From Hoeflea sp. BRH_c9 (GTDB lineage: Bacteria > Pseudomonadota > Alphaproteobacteria > Rhizobiales > Rhizobiaceae), in contig LADQ01000070.1 of assembly GCA_000961635.1 (NCBI GenBank), positions 1-36,129 of the forward strand: a stretch of 36,129 nucleotides of DNA, read 5' to 3'. Position numbers and translations under genes: made by a program. Each line of letters opens with the position of its first letter. The first letter of the stretch is position 1. This document shows positions 2,518 through 29,619 of this stretch, piece after piece. The notes under the pieces are model-generated. The model was given only the letters and a program-made list of their open reading frames with translations. It was not told where the DNA came from and searched no databases.

Positions 2518-2542
2518 AACGCTGGAAGAGCATCCTCGTTCC
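2518..2542 (-). promoter_or_regulatory. EcfG-type promoter upstream of PRC-barrel gene
   Basis: On the minus strand: GGAAC (2542-2538), 16-base spacer, CGTT (2521-2518). A perfect match to the alphaproteobacterial general-stress consensus. It implies an untranslated leader of roughly 100 bases before the gene starting at 2411. Confidence 0.75.
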
Positions 2543-2652
2543 GAAATAGATTTGGATGTTTTCAAGGCGGCAGCGCCCATTTGGAGCCGCATTTCGGCCG
2601 ATCCCATGGCAGGCCGCGCGCAGGCCACGACGGGCGTACTTGCCATAAAATA

Positions 2653-3486
2653 TCAACTTGAAACCGGTTCGCCGCCATTCGGGTGCAGCACCTGGCCCGA
2701 CATGTAGCTCGAATCCTCGCAGGCCAGGAACAGAAAGCTGGGCGCCACTTCATTGGGCTGGCCGGGCCGGCCCAGCGGCGTGTCGCGTCCGAAACTTTCC
2801 ACTTTCTCCGGCGGGAAGGTGGCGGGGATCAGCGGCGTCCATATCGGACCCGGCGCAACCCCGTTGACGCGAATGCCTTCGGGCGCAAGCTTGTGCGCGA
2901 GCCCACGAACCAGCGAGACAATTGCGCCTTTTGTCGAGGCATAGTCGATCAGCAGATCCTGGCCGCGATAGGCGGTCACAGAGGTGGTGCAGATGATCGT
3001 TGACCCGGCATCAAGATGCGGCAGCGCCGCCTGGATGACGAAGAACTGGCCAAACACATTGGTCTCGAAGGTTTCGCGCAATTGCGTCTCCGAAATGTCC
3101 TCGGGCCGCTCCTGCGGGTGCTGCTCGGCGGCATTGACGATGACGATGTCGAGCTGGCCGAAACATTCGACCACCTTGCCGATCGACTTGTCGCAAAACT
3201 CCCGGTCACCGACATCGCCCTGGATCGCAATGGCCTTGGAACCCTCGCCCTGAACCAGCCTGACTGTATCCTGCGCATCCTCCATCTCATCCTTGAAAAG
3301 AATGGCAAGTTGCGCGCCCTCGCGCGCGAACAGCCGCGCCGTCGCCCGGCCAATGCCGGAATCGCCGCCGGTGATCAGCGCCACCTTGCCGTCGAGCCGC
3401 CCGGATCCGGGATAGCGGGGTTCGTGGATGGGCTTGTCCTGCATCCTGGATTCGTGGCCGGGTTGATCGTGCTGGACCATGGTCAT
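2653..3486 (-). CDS. SDR family NAD(P)-dependent oxidoreductase (stress-type)
   Basis: A 277-residue short-chain dehydrogenase of the YghA/general-stress-protein-39 type, with a His-rich N-terminal extension of about 45 residues before the Rossmann fold. Visible motifs: cofactor loop TGGDSGIGRATA near residue 40, NAAEQH, catalytic Ser in TTSVTAY, and catalytic Tyr/Lys in the YASTKG motif. The substrate is unknown. The ATG at 3486 follows AGGAG by 6 bases; another in-frame ATG is two codons later. A one-mismatch EcfG promoter lies upstream, back-to-back with the EcfG promoter of the DUF3008 gene. Related SDRs are stress-induced in many bacteria, which agrees. Confidence 0.9.
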   Translation of the reverse strand: MTMVQHDQPGHESRMQDKPIHEPRYPGSGRLDGKVALITGGDSGIGRATARLFAREGAQLAILFKDEMEDAQDTVRLVQGEGSKAIAIQGDVGDREFCDKSIGKVVECFGQLDIVIVNAAEQHPQERPEDISETQLRETFETNVFGQFFVIQAALPHLDAGSTIICTTSVTAYRGQDLLIDYASTKGAIVSLVRGLAHKLAPEGIRVNGVAPGPIWTPLIPATFPPEKVESFGRDTPLGRPGQPNEVAPSFLFLACEDSSYMSGQVLHPNGGEPVSS

Positions 3487-3515
3487 GATCTTCTCCTGTT
3501 CGATTACGCAAACCA

Positions 3516-3540
3516 AACTCGCAGCGGCTTGGAAAGTTCC
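3516..3540 (-). promoter_or_regulatory. EcfG-like promoter (one mismatch) for SDR gene
   Basis: Minus strand: GGAAC (3540-3536), 16-base spacer, AGTT (3519-3516), against consensus CGTT. It lies 30 bases before the SDR start codon and is divergent from the perfect EcfG promoter at 3616-3640. Confidence 0.45.
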
Positions 3541-3615
3541 GGCCCATTAACGGGTCACCGGATCCGCCGCGGCGGCGCTTTGCACCAGCAACCAACTGCG
3601 GAAGGTGCGCATGTG

Positions 3616-3640
3616 GGAACCAGATTTCAGGTTCGCCGTT
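3616..3640 (+). promoter_or_regulatory. EcfG-type promoter for DUF3008 gene
   Basis: GGAAC (3616-3620), 16-base spacer, CGTT (3637-3640): a perfect general-stress promoter 36 bases before the start codon of the DUF3008 gene. Confidence 0.8.
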
Positions 3641-3676
3641 TCTCTCAAACGGACATCAAAACCAAAGGAGTTGACC

Positions 3677-3865
3677 ATGCCCGCAAAATCGAAAGCCCAG
3701 CAGAAAGCCGCCGGCGCGGCCTTGTCGGCCAAGCGCGGCGAGACCAAGGTCGCCGATCTCAAGGGGGCGTCGCGCGAGATGTATGACAGCATGAGCGAGA
3801 AGGAGCTCGACGAACTGGCCTCGACCGAACGGCAGGAACTGCCCGAACATGTGTCCAAGGATTAG
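3677..3865 (+). CDS. DUF3008 family small protein
   Basis: A 62-residue, highly charged cytoplasmic protein beginning MPAKSKAQQKAAGAAL and ending QELPEHVSKD. This is the DUF3008 signature: a Lys/Ala-rich N-terminus followed by an acidic helical part with SMSEKELDELAST. Function is unknown; the composition suggests a disordered or nucleic-acid-associated stress protein (inference). The start is set by AAAGGAG. The perfect EcfG promoter directly upstream places it in the general stress regulon. Confidence 0.88.
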   Translation: MPAKSKAQQKAAGAALSAKRGETKVADLKGASREMYDSMSEKELDELASTERQELPEHVSKD

Positions 3866-4154
3866 AGTCTTGCCACTTGGGTGGGTCGCTCGAACACCAC
3901 CTCGCCATGCCAGCAATCGCGGCGGCCTTGCGCCTGTCCGGCAATAGCGCTTGCCCGGCGCATGCAAGGCGGCTGAGACGGAGGCGCGCGCTGCTCATAT
4001 TCGGCAGACCACCGCTTGACAGTGCGTATCGCTGTTTGCAGATATGCGCCCCAGCTTCCTGATCTTCGCATCATTAAATTGCATGGGCAGAAGGCCCGCC
4101 GCTCTTGCTACAGATATGCCGCAGCGACGAATGACAACCTCCATGGGGAACCCT

Positions 4155-4523
4155 ATGAAACTTATCAGTTTGAGCGCCGCCCTGATTTTCGCTTCATTCG
4201 TATCGGCAACCGGAGCCCTGGCTCAGACCGGATCCGAATGCGTGTTCACAATTCACAACGACACCGAAGAGAACACTTTGACCGGCTTCTACACAAGCGA
4301 CGATGATGGCGCGAGCTGGAGCGCCAACTGGCTTGGCCGGAACATGAAACCGGGTCAATCAGCGGTCGCGGAATTTACCGCCGATACCTGTGCCTGCGAT
4401 CAGGTATTCCAGGCTGGGTGGCTCGACGTCAACGGCGGCGAAACCCTGGACGAAGAGCACACGATCGACATCTGCGAAGCCAGCAATGTCTATCTCGGCG
4501 ACAACGAAGTCAGCTTCGACTGA
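4155..4523 (+). CDS. Secreted/periplasmic protein of unknown function
   Basis: A 122-residue protein with a clear Sec signal peptide (MKLISLSAALIFASFVSATG, cleavage after GALA-Q near residue 23). The mature part starts with TGSECVFTIHNDTEE and has four Cys (one in CVF, two in CAC, one in DIC), so disulfide bonding is likely. It is acidic and ends QVSFD-like (EVSFD). Possibly a small beta-sandwich; I do not recognise a family with certainty. The start was chosen for the signal peptide; longer in-frame starts would bury it. No stress promoter was seen in the 289 bases upstream. A strong hairpin follows. Confidence 0.75.
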   Translation: MKLISLSAALIFASFVSATGALAQTGSECVFTIHNDTEENTLTGFYTSDDDGASWSANWLGRNMKPGQSAVAEFTADTCACDQVFQAGWLDVNGGETLDEEHTIDICEASNVYLGDNEVSFD

Positions 4524-4558
4524 CAGCGTCCCTGTTTGAAAATTCAGGGAGAGAACAG

Positions 4559-4585
4559 CGGCGCGGAACCATCGGTCCCGCGCCG
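4559..4585. terminator. Strong hairpin between secreted protein and hlyU genes
   Basis: An 8-bp GC stem (CGGCGCGG with CCGCGCCG) is extended by further pairs after one mismatch, with a tiny loop and a short T-run soon after. It lies between convergent genes (ends at 4523 and 4645) and probably terminates the plus-strand transcript. Confidence 0.6.
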
Positions 4586-4644
4586 TCGACTTTTGACAAA
4601 AGTGATCGCCGCACGGATCCACCGGCAATCATGGGCGCATCGCA

Positions 4645-4941: not shown

Positions 4942-5158
4942 GCCATGCTCCTCACTGTCATCGTCGTCATCTGATGCCGCGGAAGGTGGACCCCACTCGC
5001 CGGTCACCAATTCAGTTGCGAAAGCGTCATCTCGGGATCACACTCGGCGCCTATGCCTCGCCGGCGAAGCCAGCGAGCAGGCAACCAGGCCAGAGTCGCG
5101 CCCATGCGCCGGACGGTCCGCAAGGCATTCTTTTAGATCAATCGTGAGGAGAAAGTCC

Positions 5159-13292: not shown

Positions 13293-13535
13293 TCAACCCT
13301 GCGGGCGGACCGCTGCTGCGTCGCCGGAAATGACCCGCGCTTGACCGGGAAAGGTTTGTGTCTGAGCAGGCAACCAGGTTGTCTCCTCGACGTCGTTGAA
13401 CGCACCCCAGAGCACCCAGCCAGCCAGCAGCGCCAGCGCCAGGCTGACCGCCAGAATCACCAGAACCGGCTTGCCCTGCCGAGCCTGCCGAGCCTTGATC
13501 GGATCCATGGGTTCTTCCTTGAGGGGCTCTTTCAT
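13293..13535 (-). CDS. Small single-span membrane protein
   Basis: An 80-residue protein: basic N-terminus (MDPIKARQARQGKP), one transmembrane helix (VLVILAVSLALALLAGWVLW), then a short polar tail. It resembles small 'KARQGRxGxPVL' rhizobial membrane proteins of unknown function. Either ATG 13535 or ATG 13508 could be used; 13508 has AAGGAAG five bases upstream. Third gene of an operon behind the DUF883 and holin-like genes, 33 bases after the previous stop, so it is probably transcribed from the EcfG promoter at 14351-14375. Confidence 0.7.
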   Translation of the reverse strand: MKEPLKEEPMDPIKARQARQGKPVLVILAVSLALALLAGWVLWGAFNDVEETTWLPAQTQTFPGQARVISGDAAAVRPQG

Positions 13536-13568: not shown

Positions 13569-13982
13569 TCAGTTTTTGTTGGAGCGCGCCAGGACGCCTG
13601 CCGCGAAACCGATGGCGAGTCCGGCGATGATGGCTGTTGTCTTGTTCCTGGCGACCATGGTCGCCACGGTCGATATGGCAAAGGCGCTTGCGGTGCTCGT
13701 GGCCGCGATCCGCTGCCTGCGAAGGGCTCGCCTGCGCAGCACTGACCGAATTGCCACGGCCAGCCCACACAGGAGAAGCGCCAAACCGGCGGCCGACAGC
13801 AGGCCGATCACGCCTCCATGGGTTTCGGCGATAAACACCGCGAACGCGCCCAACAGGGCCGCGCACGCCAGCATGGCCATCACCCCGACAAAGCAGAGCA
13901 ACATGACGTCACGCTTTATCTGCCGCGCCTTGGCCCCGGCATAAGCCGAGACAAGGCTGGCAATCGGAAGTGTCGAAGTCAT
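13569..13982 (-). CDS. Phage-holin-superfamily-like membrane protein (YqjE-like)
   Basis: A 137-residue membrane protein with two adjacent N-terminal helices (about 26-53 and 57-80, AMLACAALLGAFAVFI and GLLSAAGLALLLCGLAVAI), a basic stretch RSVLRRRALRRQR, and a weaker third hydrophobic segment near the end (IIAGLAIGFAAGVLA). The layout and its position 8 bases after a DUF883 gene match the yqjD-yqjE pair of enterobacteria, where YqjE is a holin-superfamily protein. No phage genes surround it, so a cell-envelope stress role is likelier than lysis (inference). Confidence 0.75.
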   Translation of the reverse strand: MTSTLPIASLVSAYAGAKARQIKRDVMLLCFVGVMAMLACAALLGAFAVFIAETHGGVIGLLSAAGLALLLCGLAVAIRSVLRRRALRRQRIAATSTASAFAISTVATMVARNKTTAIIAGLAIGFAAGVLARSNKN

Positions 13983-13990: not shown

Positions 13991-14317
13991 CTACCTGCGC
14001 ATCAGCAGGGCGGCGAGGAAACCGGCGGCGACAGCAATGCCGAGGGACTGCAACGGATGGTCACGCACGTTGGCGACAACCTTCTTTTCGGCGTTCGAGA
14101 ACTGGCCCGACATTTCGGATACAAGTCTCTCACCGCTGCGCAACACTTCCTCGACGCGTTTTTCGGCGGCGTCGCGGGCAACGCCTGCCTGCATCGCTCC
14201 AGCGCCCGCAAGTGCTTCTCCAAGCGCTGCCAGATCTTCCCGGATTCTGGCTGTGCGTTCCGCGATCTCATCAATCGGATTGGAATTGTCGCGTGTGGAT
14301 TTGCTTGTTGCAGCCAT
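13991..14317 (-). CDS. DUF883 (ElaB/YqjD) family ribosome/membrane-associated protein
   Basis: A 108-residue protein of the ElaB/YqjD family: a helical amphipathic body (IDEIAERTARIREDLAAL ... RVEEVLRSGERLVSEMSGQF) ending in the family C-terminus VRDHPLQSLGIAVAAGFLAALLMRR, a GxxxG-like tail-anchor helix. In E. coli the paralogues are stationary-phase tail-anchored proteins that associate with ribosomes. The ATG at 14317 follows GGAGAC; an upstream frame extension lacks family character. A perfect EcfG promoter lies 34 bases upstream and should drive this gene and the two following ones. Confidence 0.88.
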   Translation of the reverse strand: MAATSKSTRDNSNPIDEIAERTARIREDLAALGEALAGAGAMQAGVARDAAEKRVEEVLRSGERLVSEMSGQFSNAEKKVVANVRDHPLQSLGIAVAAGFLAALLMRR

Positions 14318-14350: not shown

Positions 14351-14375
14351 AACGCACGGAAACGCGTTCCGTTCC
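14351..14375 (-). promoter_or_regulatory. EcfG-type promoter for DUF883 operon
   Basis: Minus strand: GGAAC (14375-14371), 16-base spacer, CGTT (14354-14351). Perfect consensus, 34 bases before the ATG at 14317; no other gene lies between. Confidence 0.82.
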
Positions 14376-15441: not shown

Positions 15442-15530
15442 GGTAATTTCCTCTTTGCATCGAAAGGTGTGCGCCGGGCTGGTCCGTGTGTGAGAGCGCG
15501 GGGCCGGCTCGGCGGCGGTTACAGCTTAGG

Positions 15531-15556
15531 AACGCTGTCCACCCGCTCCCGGTTCC
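15531..15556 (-). promoter_or_regulatory. EcfG-type promoter (17-base spacer) for double PRC-barrel gene
   Basis: Minus strand: GGAAC (15556-15552), 17-base spacer, CGTT (15534-15531). It lies 90 bases before the ATG at 15441 and just after the stop of the perM-like gene (15565). Confidence 0.72.
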
Positions 15557-15564: not shown

Positions 15565-16680
15565 TCAATTTTTTTTGTTTGCCTGCTGGTTCCGGCCCGA
15601 AGCCTGGACGGCAAGCGGGACGGCGTTGCGCATGACGGCAAAGCCAATGAGCAGGAACGGAACCGCCAGAAGACCTCCGACGGGGCCCCACAGCCAGAGC
15701 CAGAACGCCAATGACAGGAATACGAAGAACGGATTGAGCGTGACCGACCGCCCGATCACCTGCGGCGTGACGAATTGCGCTTCAATCAGATTGATGATCA
15801 GAAAAACGGCCATGGGAAAGAAAATCGCCGGAGGCGAGTCCCAGGTTGCCAGCCCGACGCCGAGCAGGACGCCGGCCATCACCGCGGGACCTATATAGAC
15901 GACATAGTTCAAGATGAACGCCAGCATCCCCCACAGATAGGGTTGCGGCACGCCAATCATCCACATTGCCGCGGCGGTCGCCAGTCCGAGGCCTGCATTG
16001 ATCACCGAAATGGACAGCAAGTATCGTGAAACGAACCATTCGGCATCGCGGAACACGCGGGCCGTTCTCAGTCTGGAACGGCGGGTGAAGCACAAGGACA
16101 ACACACTGGCGCGGATCGTATGACGGGTGGCCAGGAAAAAATACAGGCTCGCCAGAAACAGAATGATCTGGCCCACCAGGGCCGGAGCCAGGGTGGCGAT
16201 CTCTTCCATCGCCGAAGTTTCGGCTATGTCAACGGTCATCGCGGCCTTGCCGCCTGCAATGGTGCGGATCTGCTCCTGCACCCCGCCAAGTGTGTCGAAC
16301 ACAGTGCGCCAATCAATCAAATGGCGCTGCAGCTCGCGCCAGATTTGCGGCAACTTGTCGGTCCAGATCGAAAGCGGCAACGTGAACAAGGCGACCGCCA
16401 AGGCAATCATGCCCAAAAACAGCACAACAACGATGGCCGCAGACAAGGCGGCGGGGATATAGCGTTCCAGCGCCGTGGCGACGGGAGACGCCATCAAGCC
16501 GGTGACAATGGCCATGCTGATGGGAGACAGCAGAGACTGGCTGTAGTTCAGCGCCGCCAGGACCGTGATCACGCCGATAATGATGACCGCAATGTGCGCA
16601 AGCGATTGCAGGCTCGCATCCATGCTGGATCTTGCAGCGACGCGCACCATCGGTGGATCGGCACTGTACAATCGTTTCAT
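15565..16680 (-). CDS. AI-2E/PerM family membrane protein
   Basis: A 371-residue polytopic inner-membrane protein of the AI-2E transporter (PerM/TqsA, UPF0118) family. An N-terminal helix pair follows residue 25 (AHIAVIIIGVITVLAALNYS), then a family segment around PVATALERYIP, a central soluble part, and C-terminal helices with YLWGMLAFILNYVVYIGP and NPFFVFLSLAFWLWLWGP. Members export signals or act as Na+/H+ antiporters; the substrate cannot be told here. The ATG at 16680 follows GGGGAAAA; extending upstream gives non-family sequence. A perfect EcfG promoter precedes it. Confidence 0.88.
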   Translation of the reverse strand: MKRLYSADPPMVRVAARSSMDASLQSLAHIAVIIIGVITVLAALNYSQSLLSPISMAIVTGLMASPVATALERYIPAALSAAIVVVLFLGMIALAVALFTLPLSIWTDKLPQIWRELQRHLIDWRTVFDTLGGVQEQIRTIAGGKAAMTVDIAETSAMEEIATLAPALVGQIILFLASLYFFLATRHTIRASVLSLCFTRRSRLRTARVFRDAEWFVSRYLLSISVINAGLGLATAAAMWMIGVPQPYLWGMLAFILNYVVYIGPAVMAGVLLGVGLATWDSPPAIFFPMAVFLIINLIEAQFVTPQVIGRSVTLNPFFVFLSLAFWLWLWGPVGGLLAVPFLLIGFAVMRNAVPLAVQASGRNQQANKKN

Positions 16681-16706: not shown

Positions 16707-16731
16707 AACGCGGCACATGGGCAATTGTTCC
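16707..16731 (-). promoter_or_regulatory. EcfG-type promoter for AI-2E/PerM gene
   Basis: Minus strand: GGAAC (16731-16727), 16-base spacer, CGTT (16710-16707), perfect, 27 bases before the ATG at 16680 and inside the 98-base gap behind the CHASE-HWE kinase. Confidence 0.8.
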
Positions 16732-16778: not shown

Positions 16779-18587
16779 TCAGGCTGGCCGTGTCGCGTTG
16801 GGTTTTGACGTCACATTGGCGTAAGGCACCGCTATGGTGACATCTATGCCATGCGGGTGTGGCAGACTGGCGATGGATCCGCCAAGTTCGATCCGCATTG
16901 TTGCATCGAGCAGCCGTGTTCCAAACCCGCCCTTTGGACCATCGGCATCGGGATCTTGCGGCTCCGGCGGCATTTCGCTGCGCTCGGACCAGGTCAACAC
17001 AAGCGCGCGCTGCTTCCCGGCCGTATTTTTCAGCGCCCAGGACACATCGAGCGTTCCGGAACTGCACCGGGCCGAGCCATATTTGAGCGAATTGGTAGCC
17101 AGCTCGTGAAAGGCCAGGCCAAACGCCTGGGTCGCGGTTTCATTAAGTTCGACCGCCGGGCCATTCAGATTGTCTTCATCGAGATCGTCGCCAAAAATCT
17201 GCCTGAGTTCCTGACAGAGCAGCGTTTTGAGATCGGCGCCACGCCAGGCGGTGCGCGCCAGCAAATCCTGCGACGCAGCCATCGCCTGCAATCGCGCGGA
17301 GAAGGAATCCGTGAAATCCGCCAATGATTCGGATGTCCGCGCGGTTTGGCGGGATATGGCCAGCACGCGCGCAATCATGTTTTTGATGCGATGCTTCATT
17401 TCCTGCAGCAGAAATTCGCGCTCGGTCAGCGCCCGTTCGGTTTCGCGGCGAAGGGTTCCACCAACCTCAATAGCCCTTTGCTGGGCATGCGATGACGTGG
17501 CCAGGGCGGCGGCGAGCAAGATCGCGGCGACAGCCAGCATGTAGGATCGGGTCTGGTCGACCGGCGAGCGATAAACTTCGGAGGGCCGGATCTCGAGCGT
17601 CCATGTCTGCCCCGCCACATCGATCGTCGTCATCACCGAGTGGGACGCGCCAATCCGCCGGCCGGGGTCTCCCAACGACTGATAGATCATGTTCGAAGCA
17701 GCCGGCTCTCCATCCCACGCGGTGACGTGAATGGGGAGGACCGGTATCCGCCGGAGTGCTGAATCAAAGAAATTGCCGACGCGAAACGGAGCATAGACCA
17801 GGCCGAGAGGCTGGCTGGACTTCCCGGCGAAAAAGGGCATGTAAATCAGGAAGCCGGTTTGCCCGCCATCGGGATCTGGAGTAACCAGCGTCAGCGAAGC
17901 CGAGGCGCGCATGCGCTGTTCTGTCATTGCGGCGATTATGGCCGTCCGGCGTGTCGGCTCCGAGAACATGTCATATCCGAGAGCCCCGGCGTTTTGTTCT
18001 GTCTGCGGTTCCAGAAGCACAATGGGAGTGCGGTCTTGTTCGCTTGTTTCGGGCCAGGGTGCCCGGGCAATGCCATAATTGCGGGCAAGCTCGGTGGCGA
18101 TTGCCACATCCGATTGCGATCCGGTGGGCACATGGCGGGCGAAACCGATGCCCTGGACACCGCTGAATTGTTCGGTTTGCTGCAGCCGCTCGACAAATAT
18201 CCGGAATTGCTCGGCGCTGGGGACGTCACCGACGCCGGCAAACAGGGCTTCCGTCGATTTGATCAGCAGGATGTGATTGTCGATGCGGTCGCGCAGCCGC
18301 TGCACGGCGCGATCGGCCATCGCCGCAAAACTCATCCGGTTCGCCTGATCGATCGTGTACCATGATGCCGCGGCCGTCAGCATGCCCACGAGCACAACGA
18401 CGACAAACACCAGTACTGGCTGGAACCGGTACAACACATTCACACTCTTTTTCACACAAAGGAACGCAACCTCGCTAAGGCGTTCGCGCCCTGTTGGCAA
18501 GGCCGGAGATACCGCGTGGGTCAAGGTGAACCTCCAGGCGCGTTCCGATGTCGACAAAAAGAAATTGAATAATGGCCGGATGAACAT
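16779..18587 (-). CDS. CHASE-domain HWE-family sensor histidine kinase (candidate PhyR kinase)
   Basis: About 602 residues: a membrane helix near 57-78 (VLVFVVVVLVGMLTAAASW), a periplasmic CHASE domain (about 115-320, with GVQGIGFARHVP and VLLEPQTEQNAGALGYDM), a second helix near 350-367, and a HWE/HisKA_2 kinase core. The phospho-acceptor His is about residue 399 in EMKHRIKNMIARVL. The WRGAD motif, N-box HELATNSLKYGSA and GGFGTRLL box are intact. HWE kinases such as PhyK/PakF feed PhyR, and phyR is 5 kb away. The start is uncertain: ATG 18587, or a GTG near 18455 that would begin VKKSVNVLYRF just before helix 1. No EcfG promoter with full consensus was seen. Confidence 0.87.
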   Translation of the reverse strand: MFIRPLFNFFLSTSERAWRFTLTHAVSPALPTGRERLSEVAFLCVKKSVNVLYRFQPVLVFVVVVLVGMLTAAASWYTIDQANRMSFAAMADRAVQRLRDRIDNHILLIKSTEALFAGVGDVPSAEQFRIFVERLQQTEQFSGVQGIGFARHVPTGSQSDVAIATELARNYGIARAPWPETSEQDRTPIVLLEPQTEQNAGALGYDMFSEPTRRTAIIAAMTEQRMRASASLTLVTPDPDGGQTGFLIYMPFFAGKSSQPLGLVYAPFRVGNFFDSALRRIPVLPIHVTAWDGEPAASNMIYQSLGDPGRRIGASHSVMTTIDVAGQTWTLEIRPSEVYRSPVDQTRSYMLAVAAILLAAALATSSHAQQRAIEVGGTLRRETERALTEREFLLQEMKHRIKNMIARVLAISRQTARTSESLADFTDSFSARLQAMAASQDLLARTAWRGADLKTLLCQELRQIFGDDLDEDNLNGPAVELNETATQAFGLAFHELATNSLKYGSARCSSGTLDVSWALKNTAGKQRALVLTWSERSEMPPEPQDPDADGPKGGFGTRLLDATMRIELGGSIASLPHPHGIDVTIAVPYANVTSKPNATRPA

Positions 18588-18641
18588 GCCCAAAATTAGG
18601 CGCGGGCAAAAACTCCGTCTATTAACCAGGTTAATCCCGGA

Positions 18642-19445
18642 TCAGTTCCTGAGCCTTCGCCCTTTCAGGTTGGGCGTGCCGGTGCTGGCGGAAAAGTCCA
18701 TCAGAAAGCGCGCGTCGAAGTCGGCGAAACTGACCGCGCGGCTCACATCGGGGAATGTAACCCAGCCCTTTTCAATACGGGCCAGGTTTTCCTTGTTCAG
18801 TCGGCTGAGCGACCGGTTGACGTGAACCGTCGACAATCCCATGCAGTCGCCGATCTGCTCCTGGGTGAGTTCAATTTCGTAGCCTTCGGATGTCGCAAGC
18901 CCGACCTGCTCGAGGCGGATCCACAATTCAAGCAGGAAGTGCAGGATTCGTTGCGCCGCCGTGCGCGCGCCCAGCGAGACCTTGTGCTCGGCCAATATGT
19001 TGGAATGGCGCACGGTCATCCAGTCCAATCCCGACGCCAGAACGGGAAAGCGCCGATGGATGTCAAGAATGCGGACGGGCTCAATCAATGCAATCGACGC
19101 GTTGGTGAGCGCCGTGGCGGAAAATATCGACAAATAATTGAAATTGACATGCAAGCCGATGAAATCGCCGGGCAGCGAGACCCCGATGATCAGCCGGCGC
19201 CCTGCCGGCGTAATCTTGTAGCGGATCACCCAGCCATGCCGGACAAGAAACGTCACGCGCAATGGCTCGCCATCGAGGACAAACTCTTGCCCCTTGGCGA
19301 TCGTCGCCTGGTTGACCTGCATGGTTTCGAGGTAGTCGACCTCTTCCGTGGTCAGCAGAACAGCCCTGCCCAACCGCCGGACCAACGGACTTGCATCCTT
19401 GGGAATGGCACTCTGACTCTTACCAGGCATCTGGTTCTGTTTCAT
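18642..19445 (-). CDS. Crp/Fnr family transcriptional regulator
   Basis: A 267-residue regulator. A cyclic-nucleotide-binding-like beta-roll spans about 40-150 (FLVRHGWVIRYKITPAGRR, GVSLPGDFIGLH). A long dimer helix follows, then a winged HTH (LTQEQIGDCMGLSTVHVNRS, recognition helix near 215-225). No FNR-type Cys cluster and no canonical cAMP-pocket Arg-Ser pair were recognised, so the signal is unknown. Fnr-like GSR-linked regulators with this core are frequent in rhizobia. The start at 19445 (MKQNQ) is chosen over 19463, which lies within the upstream hairpin; its ribosome site appears to be the 3' arm of that hairpin. Confidence 0.88.
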   Translation of the reverse strand: MKQNQMPGKSQSAIPKDASPLVRRLGRAVLLTTEEVDYLETMQVNQATIAKGQEFVLDGEPLRVTFLVRHGWVIRYKITPAGRRLIIGVSLPGDFIGLHVNFNYLSIFSATALTNASIALIEPVRILDIHRRFPVLASGLDWMTVRHSNILAEHKVSLGARTAAQRILHFLLELWIRLEQVGLATSEGYEIELTQEQIGDCMGLSTVHVNRSLSRLNKENLARIEKGWVTFPDVSRAVSFADFDARFLMDFSASTGTPNLKGRRLRN

Positions 19446-19451
19446 ATCAAA

Positions 19452-19479
19452 GAACCCCGGCAAGCGTCTGCCGGGGTTC
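19452..19479 (-). terminator. Hairpin after csbD, directly before Crp/Fnr start
   Basis: A perfect 11-bp stem (GAACCCCGGCA with TGCCGGGGTTC) with a 6-base loop, 13 bases after the CsbD stop and 6 bases before the Crp/Fnr ATG. The T-run behind it is short (TTCTTT). The GGGG that could bind the ribosome is in the 3' arm, so the hairpin could also limit translation of the regulator. Confidence 0.7.
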
Positions 19480-19492: not shown

Positions 19493-19690
19493 TCAGCTCT
19501 TGTCGAGCCAGTGGTCGATTTCGCGCTCGGCTTCATCGCGGGTCTTGCCATAGCGGGCCTGAATCTTGCCGGCCAACTCGTCACGGCGGCCTTCAACGAC
19601 ATCAAGATCATCGTCGGTGAGTTCGCCCCACTGTGCCTTGGCCTTGCCCTTGAATTCCTTCCACTTGCCTTCAACGATATCCCAATTCAT
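19493..19690 (-). CDS. CsbD family stress protein
   Basis: A 65-residue hydrophilic protein with the full CsbD pattern: MNWDIVEGKWKEFKGKAKAQ, WGELTDDDLDVVEGRRDELAG and IQARYGKTRDEAEREIDHWL. CsbD-like proteins are abundant stationary/stress proteins of unknown biochemical role in many bacteria (sigma-B regulon in Bacillus). The start follows AAGGAG at 7 bases. A perfect EcfG promoter is 66 bases upstream, putting it in the general stress regulon. The overlapping upstream ORF ends in an ATGA junction with its start. Confidence 0.93.
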   Translation of the reverse strand: MNWDIVEGKWKEFKGKAKAQWGELTDDDLDVVEGRRDELAGKIQARYGKTRDEAEREIDHWLDKS

Positions 19691-19908
19691 CTCGAAACTC
19701 CTTGTAACGGTTGCTTTGAAAGCCATTGGCGATCTTCCTGCCGGCTCGCCTCACCAACGTGGCTTGCCCGGATTTGTTCCCTCAGTCGCGGCGCCAATTT
19801 AAAGCTCCGCCGGCGATTGGCCTTTCGGCTCTCCGGAGTGGTTTGAAGGATCGCGCCGACGCTGTTAGGTAGGGGTGCTATCGCCGGACCGTTGTAAATG
19901 CTGATCAT
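19687..19908 (-). CDS. Possible small basic protein overlapping csbD start
   Basis: A 73-codon frame starting MISIYNGPAIAPLP, preceded by GAGGGAAG four bases before its ATG. It is strongly basic in the middle (ESRKANRRRSFKLAPRLREQI). Its stop TGA overlaps the csbD ATG as ATGA, a layout typical of translational coupling. Against it: no recognised family, and the csbD EcfG promoter lies inside it, so a transcript from that promoter would lack its start. Codon use is not decisive. It may be a real rhizobial orphan or chance. Confidence 0.35.
   Translation of the reverse strand: MISIYNGPAIAPLPNSVGAILQTTPESRKANRRRSFKLAPRLREQIRASHVGEASRQEDRQWLSKQPLQGVSR
19756..19780 (-). promoter_or_regulatory. 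EcfG-type promoter for csbD
   Basis: Minus strand: GGAAC (19780-19776), 16-base spacer, CGTT (19759-19756), perfect, 66 bases before the csbD ATG. Confidence 0.82.
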
Positions 19909-21264: not shown

Positions 21265-21600
21265 TCAGTTAAACCGGCTGGCTTGAATCGGGGCCTCTGA
21301 CCGGGCCACCAGATCGCTGGCGATTTCTGGGTTGATCAGTTCAATGTCAACCTCGAGCCCGCCCGCGGCGGTGACGTCCCAAACGATCTCGGCATCCTCA
21401 TAGAACAGCGCCGGATCAACCTCGACACACGTCCCGAAAGTTCTTTTGCTGTTGGACGCCATCGCGCTGATCGCCGGGGAAAGCTCAAGCTCGCACTGCT
21501 GGACTGTTTCATAGGCAAGGGCTGGAGCAGGTTGTTCCGTACAGACCTGAAGATCATCGCCGCATGCAATCAGCAACATGAAGGCTGCGATATGTTCCAT
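21265..21600 (-). CDS. Small exported protein of unknown function, GSR-controlled
   Basis: A 111-residue protein with a short hydrophobic N-terminus (MEHIAAFMLLIACGDDLQVC); LLIAC could be a lipobox-like cleavage site, making it a possible lipoprotein. The mature part is acidic, with a few Cys (QVCTEQP, VQQCELEL, GTCVEVD), and ends in IQASRFN. I recognise no functional family. Start at 21600, preceded by AGGAGACACGTC. A perfect EcfG promoter lies 23 bases upstream, so it is predicted to be strongly stress-induced. Convergent with DUF2254 (34 bases apart). Confidence 0.78.
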   Translation of the reverse strand: MEHIAAFMLLIACGDDLQVCTEQPAPALAYETVQQCELELSPAISAMASNSKRTFGTCVEVDPALFYEDAEIVWDVTAAGGLEVDIELINPEIASDLVARSEAPIQASRFN

Positions 21601-21622: not shown

Positions 21623-21647
21623 AACGCCGTTGCGTCATGAAAGTTCC
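21623..21647 (-). promoter_or_regulatory. EcfG-type promoter for small exported protein
   Basis: Minus strand: GGAAC (21647-21643), 16-base spacer, CGTT (21626-21623), perfect, 23 bases before the ATG at 21600 and within the gap after the HWE kinase stop (21679). Confidence 0.82.
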
Positions 21648-21678: not shown

Positions 21679-22692
21679 TCAGCGCCTCGAACCGACCTCA
21701 TACTGACTCTCGGGAATTGTCAGCTGGTAGATCATCTGTTCTTTTTTGGTTTCATGATGCACGCTCGCCAGCAGCGCCTGCGGGACAACCCGCCCAAGCA
21801 CCGACCCGGAAAAGCCCGGATGATGGTTCGAAGGCGATTCCAGCTCGGTCAGCGGTTTTGCGAATGTTTCGGTCCAGGTCACAATCAGCCGCGGCTCGTT
21901 TTGTTCGTTCGCGCGCTCTTCGCTGGCAAGTTCGACCATGCCGCCGGCCGGCCCCAGGGCGCCTCTGGCCAGCGAATCAATCGCCAGCTCATGCAGCGCC
22001 AGACCGAGGTGCAAGGCCGCGTTCGGAGTGAGATAACTGTCCTGGCCGACAAGTTTGAAAGCGGGCGGCAATTCGCCGAACAGCGGCTGCAGCTGCGATT
22101 TGGTCAGGGCGAACAGGCCCGCGCCGCGCCAATCCGACGCGGTCACCAGATCCTGCGACTGGGCCATGGACTGGATGCGGTTGCGGAAGGAATACAGGAA
22201 TTCGGGGAGGTCTTCGGACGACCGCGCGGTTTGCGAGGCGATCGACTGAATCATCGCCAGCAGGTTTTTTGATCGATGGCTGAGTTCGCGCAGCAGCGTC
22301 TTGAGCACCGCTTCCCGGTACTTCACGTCATCGATATCCAGGATGGTGGTAAATATCCCGACAGTGACGCCGCTTGCGTTGATATCCGGAGCCATCTTCA
22401 GCAGGAACCAGTGCGGATCCTGCTCCGCATCACGCAGAATTTCGAGCTTTTCCGGTGTGCCGCTTTCGATCACACGCTGCTTGGCGGCGGAAACCCTGGA
22501 TGCCTGGTCTCCGAACAGCGCCGCGTCAGTCTGCCCTTCGAGTTCGGCCTCACTCGGCCAGCCTTCGGGAAAATTGGCGACAAACCGTATGGCCAGGTCG
22601 ACATCCTGGTACATTGTGGAAACGCCGGCACTGCGCAAACCGGCCAGCTTGATTCTCAGTCTATCGGTCGCCGTTAGCGGTTTGCTGGTCAT
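21679..22692 (-). CDS. PAS-HWE sensor histidine kinase with degenerate ATP-binding boxes
   Basis: A 337-residue soluble protein: a PAS-like domain (about 20-122, ending VGIFTTILDIDDVK) followed by a HWE dimerisation/phosphoacceptor region with His139 in ELSHRSKNLLAMIQ and a conserved DWRGAGL at 187-193. The catalytic domain departs from the family. The N-box reads HELAIDSLARGAL (Asp239 where the Mg-binding Asn sits, Arg for Tyr), and the usual GFGS-type glycine box is GFSGSVLG. It may be weak, inactive or act as a phosphatase/scaffold. It sits between two EcfG-controlled genes beside phyR, so a role in the GSR is likely. Start ATG 22692; no clear Shine-Dalgarno. Confidence 0.88.
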   Translation of the reverse strand: MTSKPLTATDRLRIKLAGLRSAGVSTMYQDVDLAIRFVANFPEGWPSEAELEGQTDAALFGDQASRVSAAKQRVIESGTPEKLEILRDAEQDPHWFLLKMAPDINASGVTVGIFTTILDIDDVKYREAVLKTLLRELSHRSKNLLAMIQSIASQTARSSEDLPEFLYSFRNRIQSMAQSQDLVTASDWRGAGLFALTKSQLQPLFGELPPAFKLVGQDSYLTPNAALHLGLALHELAIDSLARGALGPAGGMVELASEERANEQNEPRLIVTWTETFAKPLTELESPSNHHPGFSGSVLGRVVPQALLASVHHETKKEQMIYQLTIPESQYEVGSRR

Positions 22693-22795: not shown

Positions 22796-22960
22796 TCAGA
22801 CTTTCCGGATAAAACTCAGGATCAGGGAGATGGCCAGAAATGCCAGGAACAGGAAGAACAGGACTTGCGCGATACCGACTGAGGTACCGGCTACTCCACC
22901 GAAGCCCAGAACACCGGCGACAACGGCGACAACAAGAAACACGAGAGCGTAATACAGCAT
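22796..22960 (-). CDS. DUF1328 family small membrane protein
   Basis: A 54-residue protein read directly from the sequence: [20 protein letters not shown] then [12 protein letters not shown] and a second helix [17 protein letters not shown], ending IRKV. This is the DUF1328 (YtjA) two-helix pattern. Function unknown; homologues are commonly stress-induced. The start follows AAAGGAG at 7 bases. A perfect EcfG promoter lies 33 bases upstream, overlapping the end of phyR. Confidence 0.92.
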
Positions 22961-22992: not shown

Positions 22993-23017
22993 AACGCGCC
23001 GTTTTCTATTTGGTTCC
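22993..23017 (-). promoter_or_regulatory. EcfG-type promoter for DUF1328 gene, overlapping phyR 3' end
   Basis: Minus strand: GGAAC (23017-23013), 16-base spacer, CGTT (22996-22993), perfect. The -35 element lies inside the last codons of phyR (stop at 23006). Confidence 0.82.
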
Positions 23018-23818
23018 GGCCCTCGGCGCCGCTTCCGTGGCAGTGTTGAAAAACAACGCCTGGCTGATCAGCGCCTTGACCATGTCCGGATTGAACGGCT
23101 TGGTCACCAGGAACGCCGGTTCCGGCTTCTCGCCGGTCAACAAACGCTCCGGGAAAGCGGTAATGAAGATCACCGGAATCGTATCATTCTTGAGAATGTC
23201 ATTGACGGCGTCGATGCCGGAGCTGCCGTCGGCCAATTGAATGTCAGCCAACACCATTTTGGGTTTGGTCCGCCGGAAAATATCGAGCGCTTCGGTATGA
23301 GTCCGGGCAATGCCCGTCACCCGGTGGCCGAGCGCTTCCACCATATCCTCGATATCCATCGCGATCAGCGGTTCGTCTTCAATGATCATGATCTCGGTTG
23401 CGACCTGTTCGGATATTTCCTTTCCGGCCGTGTCAAGCAATCCGGAGACGCCAGCCTCGTCCATGCCGAGGATCTCGGCGGCTTCCGCGAGAGTGAAGCC
23501 TTCCACCGCGATCAGCAAAAACGCCTTGCGCGCCTGTGGCGTCACCGCTTCCAGATTTGCCGCGGCGCGTTTTTCCCACCCAAACGGCGTCGAATAATTG
23601 GGCAATGGAACCGACAGGCTGTCAAAGAGTTTGGAGTAGAGACGATACAGAGCGACCCGATCGTCGCCGGACTTGGGAAAAATGCTGAGATCCGAAATCA
23701 AGGCCTCAAGCATGGCCGCGACAAAGGCGTCTCCGGAGGTCTGAGAGCCGGTGACTGCGCGTGAGAAGCGGCGGAGATAAGGCAGATGCGGCGCAATGCG
23801 CATGGATAAAGTCGACAT
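23006..23818 (-). CDS. phyR: PhyR, anti-anti-sigma response regulator of the general stress response
   Basis: 270 residues: an N-terminal ECF-sigma-like domain (about 1-130, with the sigma-4-like RKAFLLIAVEGFTLAEAAEILG) and a C-terminal receiver (about 142-258). Phospho-acceptor is Asp192 in LADIQL; acidic pocket IIEDEP (145-150), Thr220 in FITAFPE and Lys240 in VTKPF are intact. When phosphorylated, PhyR binds NepR through its sigma-like domain and frees EcfG (established mechanism). Start at 23818 after AGAGGG. It is divergent from nepR-ecfG, the conserved alphaproteobacterial arrangement, with its own perfect EcfG promoter upstream. Confidence 0.97.
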   Translation of the reverse strand: MSTLSMRIAPHLPYLRRFSRAVTGSQTSGDAFVAAMLEALISDLSIFPKSGDDRVALYRLYSKLFDSLSVPLPNYSTPFGWEKRAAANLEAVTPQARKAFLLIAVEGFTLAEAAEILGMDEAGVSGLLDTAGKEISEQVATEIMIIEDEPLIAMDIEDMVEALGHRVTGIARTHTEALDIFRRTKPKMVLADIQLADGSSGIDAVNDILKNDTIPVIFITAFPERLLTGEKPEPAFLVTKPFNPDMVKALISQALFFNTATEAAPRAGTK

Positions 23819-23860: not shown

Positions 23861-23885
23861 AACGCGCGAGCGGAAAAAAAGTTCC
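23861..23885 (-). promoter_or_regulatory. EcfG-type promoter for phyR
   Basis: Minus strand: GGAAC (23885-23881), 16-base spacer, CGTT (23864-23861), perfect, 43 bases before the phyR ATG. It implies positive autoregulation of the switch. Confidence 0.85.
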
Positions 23886-23893: not shown

Positions 23894-23918
23894 GGAACTT
23901 TTTTTCATTTCGCGCATT
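23894..23918 (+). promoter_or_regulatory. EcfG-type promoter (one mismatch) for nepR-ecfG
   Basis: GGAAC (23894-23898), 16-base spacer, CATT (23915-23918) against consensus CGTT. Back-to-back with the phyR promoter, 8 bases between the two -35 boxes. The weaker -10 would give a milder feedback on the sigma/anti-sigma operon. Confidence 0.65.
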
Positions 23919-23955: not shown

Positions 23956-24141
23956 ATGATTGATAAATCCCACAAAGGCGGGGCAAGTCCCGCAGATTTC
24001 AATGCCACGGAAGCAATCGCGTCGCAATTGAAACGATATTACAAGTCGGTCGAGCAGGAGCCAATCCCCGACCAGCTTCTTGACCTGTTGGAAAAACTGG
24101 ATCAGGCGGAACGAGCGGGTGGCACTGATGGCGCGAATTGA
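23956..24141 (+). CDS. nepR: NepR anti-sigma factor
   Basis: A 61-residue NepR: a disordered N-terminus, then the conserved two-helix core NATEAIASQLKRYYKSVEQEPIPDQLLDLLEKLDQAE. The first helix carries the SQLKRYYKS sequence and the second LLDLLEKLD. It binds EcfG in unstressed cells and PhyR-P under stress. The ATG at 23956 is preferred to 23923, because 23923 lies at or before the predicted transcription start of the EcfG promoter and would add a non-family extension. The stop overlaps ecfG by 14 bases, indicating translational coupling. Confidence 0.95.
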   Translation: MIDKSHKGGASPADFNATEAIASQLKRYYKSVEQEPIPDQLLDLLEKLDQAERAGGTDGAN

Positions 24142-24727
24142 GACAGGCGTCTCCGATGCCCTGCCCGATGCCGCCAACGAACAGTTTTCGTTCCGGCGCG
24201 AGTTGCTGGCCACGCTTCCCAGCCTTCGTGCATTCGCCTTCTCGCTTGCCCGCCGTCACGACCGCGCCGATGATTTGATTCAGGAAACCGTGATGAAAGC
24301 CTGGGCCAAGCAGGAGAGCTTCCAGCCGGGCACCAATCTCAGGGCATGGCTGTTCACCATCTTGCGCAATGAATTCTACAGCCAGATGCGCCGCAAGGGG
24401 CGGGAATTGCCCGATCCGGACGGCGTCTTCGCCGCCAACCTCGCCACCCATCCCGAACAATATGGCAAGCTCGATCTGGCCGATTTCAAGCAGGCGCTCG
24501 ATCAGCTGCCTGATGATCAGCGTGAAGCGATCGTGCTGATCGGCGCTTCCGGGTTTTCCTATGAGGAAGCCGCCACGATCGCCGACGTGGCTGTCGGCAC
24601 CATCAAGAGCCGGGTCAACCGGGCGCGCGTCAGACTGCAGGAACTGCTCATCATCAGCGGCGAGAGCGATTACGGCCCCGACAACACTTCGGCCCCGCTG
24701 GTCAACAAGTCTTTCCCCGGCCGCTGA
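24128..24727 (+). CDS. ecfG: EcfG-type ECF sigma factor of the general stress response
   Basis: A 199-residue ECF15-type sigma factor. Region 2 spans about 25-92, with the DDLIQETVMKAW motif (49-60) for core and -10 binding. A linker with ELPDPDG follows, and region 4 spans about 118-175, with LPDDQREAIVLIGASGFSYEEAA and the HTH TIKSRVNRARVRLQ. The C-terminal tail is short. It directs RNA polymerase to GGAAC-N16/17-CGTT promoters, of which many exist in this window. The ATG at 24128 overlaps nepR; it is released when NepR is sequestered by PhyR-P. Confidence 0.96.
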   Translation: MARIETGVSDALPDAANEQFSFRRELLATLPSLRAFAFSLARRHDRADDLIQETVMKAWAKQESFQPGTNLRAWLFTILRNEFYSQMRRKGRELPDPDGVFAANLATHPEQYGKLDLADFKQALDQLPDDQREAIVLIGASGFSYEEAATIADVAVGTIKSRVNRARVRLQELLIISGESDYGPDNTSAPLVNKSFPGR

Positions 24728-25633: not shown

Positions 25634-25818
25634 GTTCGTCTCCTTGGTTGTGCCGCAACGCGGCGGATGACAGACAGATAGGCGGTTTAATGTTCACTGA
25701 AACCCGGCAAATACTGCACGGATTGTTCACAAAAATGACGTCACCCCGATTCCCGCCATCGCTTGCGCCGGCACGGAAAAGCGGTCTATTCAAGGGACCA
25801 TCACCAAGGAGCATGACC

Positions 25819-26586: not shown

Positions 26587-26669
26587 TTGGGATCAATGCG
26601 CGCCCGTGACATCCACAGCATGATCATCCCGAAATTGCCTCGTCCAGGCGTCTTAAAGGAGTGCACATA

Positions 26670-27512: not shown

Positions 27513-27756
27513 GCCGGCCTGAACGGCGCGCGGCCCCTAAAGGCGTCGCGCGCCCTCGACAAGACGGCGCGGATTCGGCCAATCCGCGGCTGTCCCGCGC
27601 AAAGACAGAACTTGCCGCGATCTTGCCTGCGCCGCTGCTCCGCAAAAGCGCCCCCGCCGGCTCCCTTGCGTTTACCCCCCGATTCCGGCTAATTGCCGCC
27701 CTTGAGCACATAATCAGCCGCCATCGGGGCCGGCCGCAACATCGAGGAAGTCAGCC

Positions 27757-28254
27757 ATGTCTCTTCCAGACAAAGCCTTTCCGGTCTCATGGGATCAGTT
27801 TCATCGCGACGCCCGCGCGCTGGCCTGGCGGCTCAGCGGATCCGGACAGGTCTGGAGCGCGATGGTCTGCATCACCCGCGGCGGACTGGTTCCGGCGGCG
27901 ATCATTTCCAGGGAGCTCGACATTCGCCGCATCGACACGGTCTCGGTCGCCTCCTATCACGACTATGTCACGCAAGGCGACATGAAGGTGCTCAAGGAGA
28001 TCAACGCCGATCTCCTGGAAACCGAGGGCGAAGGCGTCCTCATCGTTGATGATCTGACCGACACCGGCAAGACCGCCGCTATCGTCAGGGCGATGCTGCC
28101 GAAGGCCCATTTCGCCACAGTCTACGCCAAGCCCAAGGGCCGGCCGCTGGTCGACACCTTCGTCACCGAAGTCAGCCAGGACACCTGGATCTATTTCCCC
28201 TGGGACATGGGCTTTGCCTATGTCGAACCGATCGCCAAGGATTCCCGCGGCTGA
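27757..28254 (+). CDS. gpt: Xanthine(-guanine) phosphoribosyltransferase
   Basis: A 165-residue type I phosphoribosyltransferase that salvages xanthine and guanine to XMP and GMP with [15 protein letters not shown] (39-49) holds the pyrophosphate-binding RGG loop; the PRPP motif is [13 protein letters not shown] (94-106); [10 protein letters not shown] near the end matches Gpt base-recognition Trp/Phe residues. The start follows CGAGGAAG. The MFS gene begins 14 bases downstream, so the two are probably cotranscribed. Confidence 0.93.
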
Positions 28255-28268
28255 GCCGGGACCGGCCC

Positions 28269-29546
28269 GTGCCGGCCCCGGACGCAGCGCCCCCTCAGCC
28301 GGACGACACGCCGGATGACACCCTGGGCGGCAAGCCGGGCGCATCGTCGCGTCCGCTCTTGTTCATCTTTCTGGTCGTCACCATCGACATGATGGGCGTG
28401 GGCCTCGCCTTTCCGCTCTTGCCCAAGCTGATCCAGAATGTCGGCGATTTTTCCATTTCCGAGGCGGCCTATTACAATGGCGGCATCGCCGTGCTCTACG
28501 CGCTGGCGCAGTTCGCGTTTTCGCCCTTTGTCGGCAATCTGTCGGACGCCTATGGCCGCCGGCCGGTTCTGCTGATTGCGCAGTCCGGTCTGGCGCTCGA
28601 TTATTTTCTGATGGCGCTGGCGCCGAACCTGTGGTGGATCGCCGCCGCGCGGCTGGTCTCGGGCATGTTCGGGGCCACCGTCTCCACCGCCAGCGCCTAT
28701 GTCGCCGATGTCTCGACCGCCGAGAACCGGGCCAAAAATTTCGGCTTCATCGGCATGGCCTTTGGTCTGGGGTTTGTGATCGGCCCCTTTCTCGGCGGCG
28801 TGCTGGGCGAGATCAACATCCATCTGCCGTTCTTCGTCTCCGGCGTGCTGGTGACGCTCAACGTGGTGTTCGGCTATCTGGTGCTGCCCGAATCGTTGCC
28901 GCGCGAACACCGCAGGCCGCTGGCCGGATGGCGGCAGAGCAATCCCTTCACCGCCTTTCGGCTGTTGACCCGGCTGCCGAAACTCACACCGTTTCTCATC
29001 TGCTTCTTCCTGGTCTTCATGGCGCAGCGCGGGCTGGAGAGCATCTGGGTGCTTTATGCGGATTTCCGTTTCGGCTGGGGCATCCGCGAGGCCGCTTTTT
29101 CGCTGGCCTTTGTCGGTCTGATGTACATCATCGTCCAAGGCTTTCTGGTCGGGCGCGTGGTCGGTCGCTTCGGTGAATCAGCCGTCATCAGCGCGGGATA
29201 TCTGCTGGCTTCGTCAAGCCTCTTCACCTTCGCGCTGGTGGACCGCGGCCTGATGGCGCTGCCGCTGGTCGGGTCGTTCATTCTGGGCGCAGCACTGGCC
29301 GAACCGGCGCTCAAATCGCTCGCCTCGCAGGTCGTGGCCAGCAACCAGCAGGGCCTGCTGCAAGGCGCCATCGCCTCGGTCAACAGCCTGGTGATCATCA
29401 TCGCCCCGGCATTGGCCAATCTGGTCCTGGCCAATGTCTCGGGCCCTGCGCCGCTGGCGCCGGTCCCGGGCGCCTGGTTCCTGCTTGGATCGGTTCTGTT
29501 CCTGATGGCCTTCTTCGTCTTCCGCCGCGCCCGCGCCAGCCTGTGA
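28269..29546 (+). CDS. MFS transporter, TetA/TCR-like
   Basis: A 425-residue major facilitator with 12 predicted helices. It has a Pro/Asp-rich 28-residue N-terminal tail, helix 1 LFIFLVVTIDMMGVGLAFPL, and motif A GNLSDAYGRRPVLL in loop 2-3. GFIGMAFGLGFVIGPFLGG in helix 5 matches the drug:H+ antiporter-2 group containing TetA. Substrate unknown; resistance cannot be claimed. The start is GTG at 28269 with a GGGA-type ribosome site, 14 bases after gpt; a later in-frame start is possible because the tail is low complexity. Confidence 0.87.
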   Translation: MPAPDAAPPQPDDTPDDTLGGKPGASSRPLLFIFLVVTIDMMGVGLAFPLLPKLIQNVGDFSISEAAYYNGGIAVLYALAQFAFSPFVGNLSDAYGRRPVLLIAQSGLALDYFLMALAPNLWWIAAARLVSGMFGATVSTASAYVADVSTAENRAKNFGFIGMAFGLGFVIGPFLGGVLGEINIHLPFFVSGVLVTLNVVFGYLVLPESLPREHRRPLAGWRQSNPFTAFRLLTRLPKLTPFLICFFLVFMAQRGLESIWVLYADFRFGWGIREAAFSLAFVGLMYIIVQGFLVGRVVGRFGESAVISAGYLLASSSLFTFALVDRGLMALPLVGSFILGAALAEPALKSLASQVVASNQQGLLQGAIASVNSLVIIIAPALANLVLANVSGPAPLAPVPGAWFLLGSVLFLMAFFVFRRARASL

Positions 29547-29593
29547 CGACCGGCTGGTTCTGAGCGCGCGGAGGTCATTTCCATGGGGCGAAT

Positions 29594-29619
29594 GGAACGC
29601 CACGCCGGTTCGAGGCGTT
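29594..29619 (+). promoter_or_regulatory. EcfG-type promoter (17-base spacer) upstream of Nudix gene
   Basis: GGAAC (29594-29598), 17-base spacer, CGTT (29616-29619). The next gene on this strand starts at 29747, implying a leader of about 120 bases. Confidence 0.6.

Follow-up and report, generated by a model that had tools for sequence, protein, structure and literature searches.

The closest described relatives of the system considered here, the PhyR-NepR-EcfG control of the general stress response, are the ecfG1 locus of Rhizobium etli and the rpoE2 locus of Sinorhizobium meliloti. In the parts of the two accounts that deal with these loci, phyR and nepR-ecfG are divergent, a kinase lies beside phyR, and the promoters are of the form GGAAC-N16-CGTT (PMC3892343; PMC8103513). 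This consensus was obtained from ecfG mutant transcriptomes in R. etli (PMC3892343), and the relevant sections on a Sphingopyxis ecfG mutant transcriptome give the same consensus, with csbD as a direct target (PMC7083833). HRXXN kinases are named as a signature of the general stress pathway in the relevant part of a review (PMC8103513). The core locus, its autoregulation and the nearby kinase are described in several papers, and one of them, in the part concerned, calls the ecfG1-phyR region "highly conserved" (PMC3892343). In the portions of this literature considered here, no density of EcfG promoters around phyR is measured, which is not to claim that none has been reported. The present analysis concerns a stretch of 36,129 nucleotides (nt) from Hoeflea sp. 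BRH_c9 (contig LADQ01000070.1), hereafter the window. The window is very probably a chromosomal control locus of the general stress response, in which the clustering of EcfG promoters is the normal layout among the relatives sampled, with lineage-specific genes added. We report the sites themselves, their enrichment and conservation, and the gradient of their density around phyR. General stress regulons under RpoS and sigma-B are analogous in function and include similar small stress proteins, under unrelated regulators.

The locus contains divergent phyR and nepR-ecfG, two HWE-family histidine kinases, and small stress genes behind predicted EcfG promoters. It has each of the parts by which an EcfG locus of the ECF15 group of extracytoplasmic function (ECF) sigma factors is recognized: a sigma factor with regions 2 and 4, nepR directly upstream with its end overlapping ecfG, a divergent phyR encoding the PhyR domains, promoters of the expected type, and an HWE kinase. 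The sigma factor also scored above the cutoff for the superfamily model TIGR02937 (NCBIfam), while NepR, recognized by Pfam, reached only 21.4 bits against NCBIfam NF051865, under its cutoff of 100. The HRxxN motifs of the two kinases were read by eye as HRIKN and HRSKN. It is also seen that nepR-ecfG keeps a CATT -10 box in the window and in all eight other genomes of the genus that were compared, while phyR keeps CGTT in seven of the eight; it may be that the sigma operon is kept under a promoter of lower strength.

Both strands of the window were scanned for GGAAC-N16/17-CGTT, and the ten perfect and two one-mismatch sites listed in an earlier note on this DNA were all recovered. The note's expectation of about 0.5 perfect copies by chance in 36 kb was right. 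Across 100 dinucleotide shuffles the perfect motif came up 0.64 times on average, and no shuffle had more than 3 copies. When spacers of 8 to 29 were scanned, N16 gave eight sites and N17 two, and any other length gave zero to two. All ten perfect sites and both near sites (3516, with AGTT as its -10 box, and 23894, with CATT) fall outside called genes in a window that is about 79% coding and 21% intergenic by our own gene calls, and each faces a start codon; further one-mismatch sites occur in the window, several of them within genes. A start codon within 130 bases of each site, as the note had it, is found after correction of three gene starts, giving gaps of 22 nt for the uncharacterized gene ORF111 (start 21600), 89 nt for the double PRC-barrel gene (15441), and 33 nt for the DUF883 gene (about 14317, by eye). 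The gap before the NUDIX gene is 127 nt.

The draft genome to which the window belongs is 77% complete (3.86 Mb in 279 contigs), and the window makes up 0.9% of it. The genome-wide scan that the earlier note had called for gave 67 perfect sites, ten of them in the window, against 56 sites with the wrong spacers N18/19, one of them in the window. The Poisson tail for ten sites in the window is approximately 3e-10 with either the right-spacer or the wrong-spacer rate. The density elsewhere in the genome was thus not equal to that of the window, and the description of the window as dense relative to its genome was borne out. Wrong spacing was used as the control in place of the motif read backward (108 sites with N16/17 and 136 with N18/19 in this genome, above the motif itself), which was set aside because backward reading alters the dinucleotides. 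Outside the window there is barely an excess, with 57 right-spacer and 55 wrong-spacer sites, so that most sites elsewhere are probably chance matches. This agreement is an argument for explaining the window itself by chance or base composition, with the halves GGAAC and CGTT simply common here, and one site, 29594, fits such an account. For the set, the explanation is refuted by the sharp preference for N16/N17, the ten sites against one in the wrong-spacer control, and conservation in the genus, and the position of every site between genes likewise speaks against it; we give it next to no weight beyond 29594.

A scattered part of the regulon also exists, possibly about twelve units with the perfect consensus as far as the incomplete draft shows, because 16 of the 57 sites outside the window are promoter-like (intergenic and no more than 250 nt before a called start) compared with 6.2% of random positions. 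A few of the 16 are doubtful, such as one that abuts its start codon. In the nearly complete sister genome, G046, 15 of the first 29 sites listed were promoter-like, compared with 6.5% of random positions. This genome has 92 perfect sites, of which 90 are chromosomal, and the largest 36-kb cluster among the 90 is the phyR locus, with ten sites; the runner-up has four. Two of the ten sites in the sister cluster (1790494 and 1809851) overlap genes.

For conservation, the promoters were compared with those of as many as eight further genomes from the genus, namely the sister genome and seven named Hoeflea, one of which (L134) covers the phyR end only. Hoeflea is also the genus of the seven named genomes whose PhyR is closest to that of the window, which makes a Hoeflea source probable; judging by the named relatives, the family would be Rhizobiaceae. 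The core promoters are found again upstream of the same genes, at comparable distances from them. A promoter is conserved before the orthologue for nine genes: phyR, nepR, DUF1328, ORF111, csbD, the AI-2E family transporter, the double PRC-barrel gene, DUF883, and the left PRC-barrel gene. In the sister genome, the sole genome checked for it, the promoter of the last was likewise perfect and stood 106 nt before the gene, as it does in the window. In H. marina (L137) most of the cluster genes lie on the opposite side of phyR, so that the order has changed and the promoters have been kept. The sister genome is syntenic with nearly the whole window at protein identities of 66-98% (one gene by partial match). 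At the syntenic place in that genome the SDR and DUF3008 genes (2653-3865) and the MFS transporter gene (28269-29546) are missing, and this absence, together with a tRNA-Leu beside ecfG (Rfam at its gathering thresholds reports a tRNA and nothing else), might suggest a strain-specific stress island acquired recently as a block. The near-complete synteny, the promoters shared across the genus, and the composition of the region (59.0% guanine plus cytosine in 13.2-24.8 kb, against 60.0-62.0% in the surroundings) argue otherwise, and no integrase was noticed by eye among the translations, not all of which were domain-searched. Recent acquisition of the whole island was rejected on synteny and composition, the same cluster being present in other species of the genus, and we consider an island origin highly unlikely.

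Clustering was then measured in the family. The 40 best PhyR matches in a search of 121 family genomes supplied 38 genomes (G028 and G029 were left out), to which the window and the sister genome were added. Each genome contributed one locus of up to 20 kb around phyR, the better match being taken where there were two. Within 10 kb of phyR, the 40 loci held 213 perfect sites, whereas seven control spacer pairs averaged 15.5, an approximately 14-fold enrichment. The density declines with distance from phyR, from 8.75 sites per 10 kb in the first kilobase to 4.68 (1-2.5 kb), 2.86 (2.5-5 kb), 1.18 (5-7.5 kb), and 0.44 (7.5-10 kb), while control spacers stay at 0.17-0.41 per 10 kb across these bins. 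Counted per ±10 kb, perfect sites in the 38 full-span loci range from 1 to 10, with a median of 5.5. The window and the sister genome have eight each, counts that include one doubtful site apiece (29594, and 1790494 at the nepR end in the sister genome) and are set against unpruned counts for the other loci. The window therefore has more sites than the median of the PhyR-NepR-EcfG loci sampled and stands joint fourth with five others, a density that is not exceptional among relatives. What the earlier note had right was the presence of EcfG-type promoters, mostly conserved in the genus, around a genuine phyR/nepR-ecfG locus; its description of the clustering as unusual for a regulon that is normally scattered does not survive the comparison with these 40 loci. 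The result replaces the impression of a strange island by a quantified pattern: in the genomes sampled, candidate EcfG targets crowd round the sigma factor's own locus with a gradient. SMc01508 and SMc01509 of S. meliloti are genes that we take to adjoin rpoE2. Both are RpoE2-activated according to the part of the study that treats them (PMC6180224).

In other families of the class the clustering is weaker than in the own family. Of 21 genomes with a PhyR-like match over both parts of the protein, 20 were used (G165, partial, was left out), and their loci held 52 sites compared with 4.7 for the control; 21 of the 52 lie within 1 kb of phyR, and the median is 2 among the 15 loci with full span.

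The genes that accompany phyR were surveyed in 39 family neighbourhoods, the window being excluded. DUF1328 genes occur in 27 of them (26 with a perfect site upstream), ORF111 in 17 (15), double PRC-barrel genes in 17 (14), DUF883 genes in 17 (12), AI-2E transporter genes in 14 (9), and csbD in 13 (9). DUF3008 is found in none of the 39 and NUDIX in one.

Several points weigh against reading the whole window as a conserved EcfG cluster. The family loci were taken for their high PhyR scores and so do not sample the family at random, and shared ancestry keeps related genomes from being independent. Perfect sites precede phyR in 25 of 39 neighbourhoods (31 with one mismatch or fewer) and nepR in 13 of 33 (25 with one mismatch or fewer), but only two of 16 relatives of the left PRC-barrel gene, none of five SDR genes, and none of 31 CHASE kinase genes. 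Three of the twelve sites in the window (29594, 3516, and 3616) are without support from conservation. The NUDIX orthologue in the sister genome has no site of one mismatch or fewer within 350 nt, on which basis site 29594 is probably a chance match; as it is not conserved there, we credit no more than nine perfect sites as candidate EcfG promoters. The csbD gene, the Crp/Fnr-type regulator gene and the CHASE kinase gene probably do not form one operon, because a terminator-like stem of 12 pairs (19479-19452) follows csbD and precedes the other two. The weight of this stem is limited, as a scan of the window overall found 14 stems, not above shuffles (11.7, standard deviation 3.3). The CHASE kinase gene lacks a perfect EcfG site in the window, where a one-mismatch site lies at 18624, and its orthologues have no site of one mismatch or fewer before the gene in seven of seven other genus genomes.

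It could also be proposed that these promoters are read not by EcfG but by a different ECF sigma factor whose motif overlaps. Motif overlap between the ECF15 and ECF26 groups has been published, and S. meliloti RpoE6 and RpoE2 have 27 targets in common according to the part of the study concerned (PMC6180224). The motif is exactly the EcfG consensus, and the sites crowd phyR/ecfG in most genomes sampled, which makes this proposal very improbable as well.

If the window is the control locus of the general stress response, its operation can be proposed by analogy with the known system, from which the partner switch, transcription by EcfG, and the question of which kinase feeds PhyR are all carried over. 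Stress would cause the kinases to phosphorylate PhyR, and phosphorylated PhyR would take NepR from EcfG. The EcfG so freed, together with RNA polymerase, would fire its own operon along with phyR and the genes around it, such that a single event could switch on about nine units in the locus at once. The crowding of candidate targets makes the neighbourhood of phyR an inexpensive place to look for new stress genes, and the ORF111 family is already one such.

ORF111 belongs to a family described by neither Pfam nor NCBIfam. It had no match in either database, only one of 42 relatives had a marginal Pfam match (E 0.041), the best hit in a profile search of the PDB had an E of 0.24, and a Foldseek search with the predicted model gave a best E of 0.34 and no match at E ≤ 0.001. 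The model itself has a mean predicted local distance difference test score (pLDDT) of 80 and suggests a small alpha/beta fold, residues 94-111 being unreliable. The relatives came from 46 matches in 139 loci, of which four weaker than E 1e-3 were dropped to leave 42 for alignment; among these, L093 and L149 represent one region of a single genome, and there may be further overlap between named and unnamed loci. Seven positions are invariant in the alignment (M1, A5, A6, C13, C20, C36, and C58), and some more distant copies differ in the N-terminal part. A lipobox-like LIAC raised the possibility of a lipoprotein; this is doubtful, as the model places these residues in a strand (pLDDT 84-90 for the block). 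Most likely, ORF111 would act as a stress effector or as a redox-sensitive partner of the switch.

An ORF111 profile matched 65 of the 121 family genomes and two of 190 genomes class-wide, these being the own genome and one weak match. In the 64 places that remain once the nine weakest matches (E 6.9e-7 to 2.9e-4) are set aside, a perfect EcfG motif lies within 130 nt upstream in 45 and a motif with one mismatch or fewer in 59; of the five places without a site, one has unread bases upstream. Random windows from the same loci gave 81 perfect and 184 one-mismatch-or-fewer sites in 1,920, a control that is inflated because the loci contain true sites, so that the control-spacer density is the better yardstick. 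Most copies (54 of 64) are within 5 kb of a full-length phyR, at a median distance of about 2.3 kb, and of the ten that are not, eight keep a perfect site. Strong ORF111 matches occur in 63 of 98 genomes with a full-length phyR and in none of 23 without (Fisher 2.6e-9, on related genomes that are not independent); with weak matches counted, the figures are 64 of 98 and one of 23. From these patterns the family looks hard-wired to EcfG. Among 72,556 plasmid records ORF111 was found in one, from Shinella, with 37% identity and no listed gene beneath the match.

The start of ORF111 at 21600 follows from the alignment of genus sequences, in which a conserved ribosome-binding site stands before it, 22 nt after the -10 box. 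An alternative considered for the site at 21623 was a long leader or a small RNA of the ReC64 type, since a start at 21462 had given a near-constant gap of 160 nt before a frame of 65 amino acids; it was rejected because the genus alignment shows an upstream ATG with a ribosome-binding site and a longer protein gene. The start of the double PRC-barrel gene was corrected on similar grounds. In R. etli, ReC64 is an EcfG-driven RNA of 88 nt downstream of phyR-tcrY, as given in the passage that describes it (PMC3892343). The likeness lies in an EcfG promoter placed just past the kinase that follows phyR, and the difference is that the site at 21623 heads a conserved protein gene on the kinase strand. 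Three Rhizobium loci (L203 12140-12164, L169 12125-12149, and L176 12122-12146) have an EcfG site past the kinase on the other strand, preceding a brief, similar stretch that ends in what looks by eye like a terminator, in agreement with ReC64 as published; none of these three loci gave a match to ORF111.

Taken together, the family pattern and the ORF111 results allow a broader proposal, tentative and in our estimate somewhat less than an even bet, that the family keeps a regional EcfG regulon, seen as a gradient over 5-10 kb, and that ORF111 is an undescribed core part of its stress response. The sigma locus would then be a landing site at which stress genes accumulate and are replaced, and ORF111, a small protein with four cysteines that keeps its EcfG promoter even far from phyR, would perhaps sense redox state as a partner in feedback or buffer it as an effector.

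Table 1. Predicted EcfG promoters and associated genes of the window, in order of position. Genus counts refer to the other genomes compared.
Feature	Position	Strand	Remarks
Left PRC-barrel protein	2046..2411	-	Pfam PRC; 88% identical in the sister genome G046
EcfG promoter of left PRC-barrel gene	2518..2542	-	Perfect; second, left sub-cluster
EcfG-type site before SDR oxidoreductase gene (2653-3486)	3516..3540	-	One mismatch
EcfG-type site before DUF3008 gene (3677-3865)	3616..3640	+	Perfect; Pfam DUF3008
Two hydrophobic open reading frames after DUF883 gene	13569-13982, 13293-13535		Without significant family
Protein with DUF883 C-terminal region	13991..14317	-	Weak ElaB resemblance, below cutoff
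EcfG promoter of DUF883 gene	14351..14375	-	Perfect; genus: perfect 6/7, one mismatch 1/7
Double PRC-barrel protein, 328 amino acids	14455..15441	-	Start corrected to 15441; N-terminus signal-peptide-like by eye
EcfG promoter of double PRC-barrel gene	15531..15556	-	Perfect; genus: perfect 7/7
AI-2E family transporter	15565..16623	-	Pfam PF01594
EcfG promoter of AI-2E transporter gene	16707..16731	-	Perfect; genus: perfect 3/7, one mismatch (CATT) 4/7
CHASE-HWE histidine kinase	16779..18455	-	Start uncertain; HRxxN by eye; HWE_HK
Crp/Fnr-type regulator	18642..19463	-	No own EcfG site seen in the window
CsbD-like stress protein	19493..19690	-	Pfam CsbD
EcfG promoter of csbD	19756..19780	-	Perfect; genus: perfect 7/7
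ORF111, uncharacterized protein, 111 amino acids	21265..21600	-	Start corrected
EcfG promoter of ORF111	21623..21647	-	Perfect; genus: perfect 6/7, one mismatch 1/7
HWE-family histidine kinase	21679..22614	-	Start uncertain (22614 or 22692); Pfam HWE_HK on longer form; HRxxN by eye
DUF1328 small protein	22796..22960	-	Pfam PF07043
EcfG promoter of DUF1328 gene	22993..23017	-	Perfect; genus: perfect 8/8; 32 nt before start
phyR, anti-anti-sigma response regulator	23006..23803	-	Pfam PhyR_sigma2, PhyR_sigma-like, Response_reg
EcfG promoter of phyR	23861..23885	-	Perfect, N16; genus: perfect 7/8, one mismatch in L131
EcfG promoter of nepR-ecfG	23894..23918	+	One mismatch (CATT -10); genus: same CATT 8/8
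nepR, anti-sigma factor, 61 amino acids	23956..24141	+	Pfam NepR, 55.7 bits (cutoff 25.7)
ecfG, ECF15-type general stress sigma factor	24128..24727	+	Pfam Sigma70_r2 and r4_2; NCBIfam NF009169, NF009199
Motif match before NUDIX gene (29747-30247)	29594..29619	+	Perfect

Among the neighbouring genes, the promoter of the DUF1328 gene may also serve the HWE kinase downstream by read-through, because no terminator-like site lies between the two on that strand. The leader at 15442-15530, which separates the double PRC-barrel gene from its EcfG site, is strongly conserved in the other genus genomes compared, enough for its translation in one frame to look alike; this leader may be a conserved 5' untranslated element. 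Elsewhere in the genome, a second small cluster lies on contig C123 (1556-3759; L026-L028), with three perfect sites within 2.2 kb, one of which precedes a gene that is conserved together with its site in the sister genome (L077).

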